Origin: Euzebya sp.
GTDB lineage: Bacteria; Actinomycetota; Nitriliruptoria; Euzebyales; Euzebyaceae
DNA: 64,000 nucleotides
Assembly: GCF_964222135.1 (NCBI RefSeq)
Contig: NZ_CAXQBR010000068.1
Span: forward strand, 1-64,000
Direction: 5' to 3'
Part shown: positions 27,750 through 28,340 of the stretch, piece after piece
Layout of the letters: every line of letters begins with the position of its first letter
Position numbering within the stretch: position 1 is the stretch's first letter
The notes under the pieces: generated by a model
The model's input: the letters and a program-made list of their open reading frames with translations, nothing else
Databases searched by the model: none
Told to the model about the DNA's origin: nothing
Program-made: the position numbers and the translations under genes

Positions 27750-27866
27750 CGCCGGCAGCGTAGGGCCGGGACCGGGGCGGGGTCCGCACCGGACCCGCTC
27801 CGGGGAGGGGTTGATCCCCACCGACCCCCGGGGGAGGATGACCCGGCGGACGACAGCGGAGGACCC

Positions 27867-28340
27867 ATGGGCGACGTCGTGTACACCTCATCCGTCTCGA
27901 TCGTGCGGGAACGAGGGCCCGTGCGGACCGCGCAGCTGCCCGGCCGGGACGAGCCCGTGACCTTCGGCGTGCACGGGGCGGTGGCCGAGCACTACGGCGT
28001 CGACCCCGAGGACTTCCCGCCCGACGCGACGACCCTCGACTACGTGGTCGCCGCCGCCGGCGGGTGACTGACCGGCACGTTCGGGGGTGCCCTGGAGGCA
28101 CGTGGCATCCCCGCCGGAGGCGGTCGTCTCCGATCCGACATCACCGGTGAGATCGAGCTCGAGGGCAGGACGCTCGTCATCCGGCGCATCCACGCCGCGT
28201 ACACCCTGCAGGTCGACGCGGCCGCCGATCGCGAGGCGATCGAGCGCGTGCACGGCTTCCACGCCGACCACTGCCCGGTCGCCCGCTCGATCCGCGACGC
28301 GATCGACGTGACGACCTCCTACGAACTGACGGGCGCATGA
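27867..28340 (+). CDS. OsmC-family protein with UGA at the first catalytic Cys (candidate selenoprotein)
   Basis: 158 codons including the stop, reading through TGA at 28065-28067 (codon 67). Before it stands TTLDYVVAAAGG and after it LTGTFGGALEARGIPAG, which together form the OsmC motif where the peroxidatic Cys is expected (AAxxCLxxT). The second redox Cys is intact in HCPVARSIRDA (codon 136). OsmC/Ohr proteins reduce organic hydroperoxides. ATG 27867 has GCGGAGGA upstream. Either the UGA encodes selenocysteine, or it is a recent TGC to TGA nonsense mutation that leaves a 66-residue fragment. Nothing else in the gene is damaged. Hairpins at 28084-28112 could act as a SECIS. Confidence 0.65.
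28084..28112 (+). other. Candidate SECIS-like hairpin after the OsmC UGA
   Basis: Two alternative folds start about 17-20 bases after the UGA. Fold A pairs GGGGUGCC (28084-28091) with GGCAUCCCC (28104-28112): eight pairs with one bulged U and a 12-base loop. Fold B pairs GUGCC (28087-28091) with GGCAC (28097-28101) around the loop CUGGA. The UGA-to-loop distance of 24 bases lies in the usual bacterial range. The loop lacks the typical early G/GU, so the evidence is weak. Confidence 0.3.

Follow-up and report, generated by a model that had tools for sequence, protein, structure and literature searches.

We consider it very probable that a gene of Euzebya sp. (Actinomycetota, class Nitriliruptoria) encodes a selenocysteine (Sec)-containing enzyme of the OsmC/Ohr fold, in which UGA codon 67 is read as Sec by way of SelB and a downstream hairpin, and which has Ohr-like chemistry and belongs to a subfamily of its own. 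The gene occupies positions 27,867 to 28,340 of contig NZ_CAXQBR010000068.1 (assembly GCF_964222135.1); the window is the whole stretch that was analyzed, the first 64,000 nucleotides of this contig, and the genome to which it belongs is called the host genome. The sequences show the position of the codon and its conservation, the presence of Sec machinery, the exchange of Sec for Cys, selection after the UGA and a predicted OsmC/Ohr fold. From these we infer Sec insertion, peroxidase activity, substrate and reductant.

Conservation of the UGA codon

The original prediction, made from the DNA alone, held that reading through the TGA at 28,065 yields an OsmC protein of 157 residues with an intact Cys at codon 136, and that chance would hardly place a stop on the catalytic codon. 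The reading frame and the Pfam OsmC domain (PF02566) agree with the first claim: the window copy has a single internal TGA in an otherwise intact frame with no other lesion, and the domain spans this codon (residues 57-150, E 6.5e-12, 46.2 bits compared to a cut-off of 27.5). The second claim is borne out by comparison with relatives. A scan of 84,980 species genomes with six peptide patterns, none of which covers codon 67, returned 22 relatives with 54-70% identity to the window protein, all of which match PF02566 at E 0.01 or better. These come from metagenome-assembled genomes (MAGs) labeled as Actinomycetota/Acidimicrobiia, Acidobacteria, Chloroflexi, Poribacteria, Spirochaetaceae and Myxococcota, a count of about six phyla that is approximate because MAG labels can be wrong. 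Codon 67 is TGA and codon 136 is TGC or TGT in every one of the 22. Of 66 genomes of the host's class, 19 carry the gene (18 besides the host), each time with one internal TGA that is always codon 67. Many more TGA copies were seen among 396 sampled genomes of the host's phylum, and codon 67 is TGA in each of the 28 that were fetched. In total, we examined 69 TGA-form genes including that of the window; a few are near-duplicates, and 63 distinct rows entered the hairpin analysis. All 68 relatives share the TGA at exactly codon 67, and both Sec67 and Cys136 are invariant in alignment A1.

Selenocysteine machinery and exchange with cysteine

The search for sel genes that the original prediction had proposed found SelA, SelB, SelD and tRNA-Sec in the host genome, all above their model cut-offs (Table 1). 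SelA and SelB share a contig and a strand, separated by about 1.4 kb that includes another gene. Within the host's class, SelB exceeded its cut-off in 16 of the 19 carriers of the gene, compared to 20 of the 47 genomes that lack it (p 0.0025; this p value and the one given below for the Cys orthologs are indicative, as related genomes are not independent). SelB was likewise present in 18 of the 22 MAGs of the first scan, and the SelB-negative carriers of the TGA gene are mostly fragmented drafts.

The original prediction had also suggested inspecting codon 67 in relatives; it is TGA rather than a Cys codon in all but a single lineage, which has no SelB above the cut-off. Among Actinomycetota, where Cys forms were sought, stop-free full-length copies were seen only in one family (f18). 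Seven f18 orthologs (L113-L119) have TGC or TGT exactly at codon 67, in the motif CLIGTFGG or similar, and retain Cys at codon 136; they belong to the same subfamily and differ in having Cys for Sec. An eighth f18 copy, L120 (G364:C43), is a paralog lacking both redox residues, with Asp at 67 and Ser at 136. All five f18 genomes lack SelB above the cut-off, whereas it is present in 24 of 30 sampled genomes of the phylum that have TGA copies (Fisher p 0.0014). As judged from these sequences, Sec is the usual state of the subfamily, and the one lineage seen to have Cys forms lacks SelB. Two divergent Sec forms, L121 and L122 (in G105 and G235), have the motif UMMGT and a TGAA rather than a TGAC context, and the tree places them close to the Cys forms.

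Selection and candidate SECIS elements

Over 139 pairs, the median ratio of nonsynonymous to synonymous substitution rates (dN/dS) was 0.15 before the TGA and 0.22 after it; the part downstream of the TGA therefore evolves as translated sequence. Further decay, which the original prediction had listed among the refuting signs, is absent from the window copy: its frame is otherwise clean, and purifying selection continues after the TGA. These results bear on the possibility that the TGA is a recent nonsense mutation in what was once a Cys-type OsmC gene and is now a pseudogene, or a sequencing error. Decayed copies of this subfamily do occur elsewhere: L132 (G338:C346:3342-3796) and L133 (G281:C1:3821626-3822028) have extra stops or frame shifts, and G338 carries an intact TGA copy (L101) besides the decayed L132. 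The hairpin of the window gene, described below, is also not strictly canonical. Against this stand the identical TGA in each of the other 68 TGA-form genes, close relatives included, and the lack of any other lesion in a gene under purifying selection 3' of the TGA. The fresh TGC-to-TGA mutation that the original prediction kept as a fallback is rejected because the same TGA is shared across several phyla, and we give almost no credence to a recent lesion or sequencing error of any kind.

The region just after the UGA shows signs of constraint beyond that on the protein. Synonymous entropy is lowered in codons 68-79 (1.03 compared to 1.57 bits, p 2.2e-4), and Leu68 is CTG in 59 of 63 rows. 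Scored by published rules for the bacterial selenocysteine insertion sequence (SECIS; PMC13188914), 62 of the 69 TGA genes have a strict match, compared to 36% expected under synonymous shuffling. A strict match was found in three of the seven Cys orthologs as well, so the SECIS rules alone are permissive in GC-rich DNA. The sequence of most relatives can fold into a common hairpin, GCGCGCU-GGA-GGCGCGC, or into a shortened register of the same stem-loop. In the TGA genes, 90% of cells are paired for hairpin A, compared to 57% in the f18 Cys orthologs. Hairpin stability relative to synonymous shuffles is modest for the family (median z -0.8), with z -2.4 for the window region. Hairpin B lies slightly above column shuffles (0.762 compared to at most 0.756), a difference that we do not count as proof. 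A search of the host genome with the Rfam SECIS_1 model gave no match, an uninformative result given that the model matched none of the controls either.

The original prediction doubted that the apical loop downstream is canonical, and for the window copy this doubt is correct: the SECIS rules are matched there only with one mismatch. Two candidate forms follow UGA67 (Table 1). The loop of the long form lies 27 nt from the UGA, and this stable candidate (-21.3 kcal/mol) is common to the seven genes of the window's clade; the short form overlaps the stem-loop position kept in most relatives. The stem is altered in the window's clade, and SelB may bind either the long or the short form. Another clade (L054-L057, L060 and L061) has AGG in place of CGN for the Arg that follows the loop, and GCC for the neighboring Ala, two changes that disrupt the common hairpin. 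These sequences could pair as CUGG-AGG-CCAG, a possible switch of SECIS register.

Several points weigh against our reading. The window hairpin has no strict SECIS match, needing one mismatch, and can be paired in more than one way. Covariation falls short of formal significance, and hairpin A falls within column shuffles; the weakness of the covariation is explained by hairpin columns that hardly vary. Some drafts with the TGA gene have no SelB match, two of them (G020 and G233) despite a stated completeness of 95% or more. The case for Sec67 comes wholly from sequence and predicted fold, and the proposed peroxidase function from fold and residue pattern, in a subfamily far from characterized Ohr and OsmC proteins. 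The few carriers without a SelB match, together with the fact that Sec itself is deduced, leave some room for decoding of the UGA by Trp-tRNA or another near-cognate tRNA, that is, for regulated stop-codon readthrough. This explanation would not account for the residue that exchanges at the active site, which is Cys and never Trp, Arg or Gly. It also sits poorly with the tracking of SelB by gene presence, the over-representation of SECIS-like hairpins and the normal termination of neighboring genes at TGA, and we regard it as very unlikely. A reassigned genetic code was considered separately and rejected: the stop codon of this gene and of five others nearby is TGA, and UGA has therefore not been reassigned across the genome.

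Table 1. Features of the Sec-type OsmC gene (window coordinates) and of the Sec machinery (host genome, contig:positions)
Feature	Position	Strand or location	Remarks
Sec-type OsmC gene	27867..28340	+	157 residues with UGA67 as Sec; own stop TGA at 28338-28340
Recoded UGA, predicted Sec67	28065..28067	+	site of the first (peroxidatic) Cys of OsmC/Ohr; TGA in 69/69 TGA-form genes
TGC of Cys136, putative resolving Cys	28272..28274	+	invariant in alignment A1
GGAGG, Shine-Dalgarno-like	27858..27862	+	4 nt upstream of ATG 27867; from sequence
Candidate SECIS, long form	28082..28113	+	10-bp stem CGGGGGUGCC/GGCAUCCCCG, one mismatch, 2 bp, loop GAGGCA
Candidate SECIS, short form	28087..28101	+	GUGCC-CUGGA-GGCAC; overlaps conserved stem-loop position
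SelA	C65:46330-47364	host genome	above model cut-off
SelB	C65:43057-44892	host genome	above model cut-off
SelD	C3:152979-153902	host genome	above model cut-off
tRNA-Sec	C65:119779-119870	host genome	anticodon TCA; above cut-off

Relation to known OsmC families

OsmC-like selenoproteins with the motif UxxT have been described from marine metagenomes, with three sequences in the Sargasso Sea survey (Zhang, Fomenko and Gladyshev 2005) and five in the Global Ocean Sampling survey (2008) (PMC1088965, PMC2398784), as the original prediction correctly stated. A 2026 catalogue of prokaryotic selenoproteins has one OsmC-like entry, the UxxT type from the 2005 survey. The window protein resembles this type in its OsmC domain, in Sec at the first redox Cys and in a bacterial SECIS-like hairpin downstream (PMC1088965, PMC2398784). 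It differs in its motif, which in the window subfamily is UxxG (ULTGT, ULLGT or UMMGT), with an invariant Gly at +3 (G70) in alignment A1. The NCBIfam family NF041052 (OsmC_like_Se) is taken to cover the published UxxT selenoprotein; the window protein scores 21.4 bits with this profile, below the cut-off of 95, and at E 0.01 nine of the 22 members of the first scan match it (best E 2.1e-5) and 13 do not. In a quick tree with long branches among outsiders, a branch with 99% support in the Shimodaira-Hasegawa-like approximate likelihood ratio test separates the Sec forms and f18 Cys forms from the other sampled OsmC proteins, including Cys forms that match NF041052. By the published motif, and by the NF041052 profile and the tree, the subfamily is thus apparently distinct from the catalogued UxxT type.

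Members of the TIGR03562 (OsmC) and TIGR03563 (SACOL1771-type) peroxiredoxin families have Cys at both redox positions. The window subfamily shares their fold (1nye, 1qwi), and the 22 members from the first scan include 17 weak matches to TIGR03562 (best E 1.2e-4) and 11 to TIGR03563 (best E 3e-6); the window protein itself matched neither profile at E 0.01. Ohr likewise has the same fold (1usp, 6ebg and 1zb9 are among the structure matches) and two redox residues. The window subfamily differs from Ohr in having Sec for the peroxidatic Cys, and has 10-18% identity to Ohr entries.

Two sequences found in the NF041052 search are further candidates outside this subfamily. L130 (G279:C45:3488-3844) belongs to a different OsmC subfamily and has one TGA at the first Cys (ALCA-U-INVSTARMAAKI) and a later Cys in CPV, making it a second candidate Sec-OsmC type. 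L131 (G021:C176:5931-6101, minus strand) is a fragment of OsmC-like sequence whose TGA falls within a UxxT motif (ATIGL-U-MLTQIVRYGRM), like the published type. Its frame ends soon after the TGA, and it may be decayed or frameshifted. Sec may have been adopted more than once on the OsmC fold.

Fold and likely function

AlphaFold, given the 22-sequence alignment, predicted a clear OsmC/Ohr fold (mean predicted local distance difference test score, pLDDT, 93.2). In a Foldseek search of the Protein Data Bank (PDB), the prediction matched 2onf (E 8.4e-10), and almost all of the matches listed were of the OsmC/Ohr type; PDB structure matches had E below 1e-9 and 10-21% identity. A phmmer search of the PDB with the single sequence found no match, but a profile search did, aligning Sec67 and Cys136 with both Cys residues of 2onf. 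In alignment A1, Arg20 is conserved in at least 90% of sequences, and Asp58, nine residues before Sec67, is invariant. The Ohr mechanism (PMC5962072) starts with attack on the hydroperoxide by the first Cys, assisted by Arg19 and Glu51; the second Cys then acts as the resolving residue, and lipoylated proteins reduce the disulfide so formed. The Arg and the acidic residue of the window subfamily may correspond to Arg19 and Glu51.

The function is most likely that of a selenocysteine-based hydroperoxide reductase. SelB and Sec-tRNA-Sec would read UGA67 as selenocysteine, aided by the hairpin that closely follows it. If the chemistry parallels that of Ohr, an organic hydroperoxide would be attacked by the selenolate of Sec67, Cys136 would resolve the oxidized selenium through an Se-S bond, and a dithiol, from a lipoylated protein or another thiol system, would reduce this bond. 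Alternatively, the selenoprotein could have another redox role, such as thiol-disulfide exchange or the reduction of other oxidized sulfur or selenium species. The subfamily's distance from Ohr and OsmC, seen in its low identity to PDB matches and its long separating branch, would fit such a role. So would the case of FTN_1133, an organic-peroxide-response protein that is reported to have no thiol-dependent peroxidase activity (PMC4069020), and the presence in the host genome of two further OsmC-domain genes above the cut-off, both without internal stops. The resemblance of Sec67/Cys136, Arg20 and Asp58 to the Arg, Glu, peroxidatic Cys and resolving Cys of Ohr (PMC5962072), mapped by inspection, speaks for hydroperoxide reduction, and we consider a different redox role the less likely of the two, though with an appreciable chance.

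The upstream neighbor of the gene, on the opposite strand, encodes an HTH_67 protein, and the downstream neighbor a GGDEF-EAL protein. A search for a conserved operon partner near the relatives found only lineage-specific neighbors, and neither HTH_67 nor GGDEF-EAL recurred.

Implications

OsmC-like selenoproteins as such have been known since 2005; what the present analysis adds to the original prediction is a whole subfamily that is apparently not the catalogued UxxT type. Against a single catalogued OsmC-like entry stands a subfamily carried by 19 of the 66 genomes of the host's class and also by MAGs from several further phyla. It is likely that ordinary gene callers cut or split its members at the UGA. 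We lean slightly toward the view that this OsmC subfamily, across several phyla, has Sec as its default and perhaps ancestral peroxidatic residue, replaced by Cys in one SelB-less lineage, and that it is one of several separate uses of Sec on the OsmC fold. The finding points to selenium-dependent peroxide defense, and the subfamily, with its naturally occurring Sec and Cys members, lends itself to asking what selenium adds to a hydroperoxide reductase.
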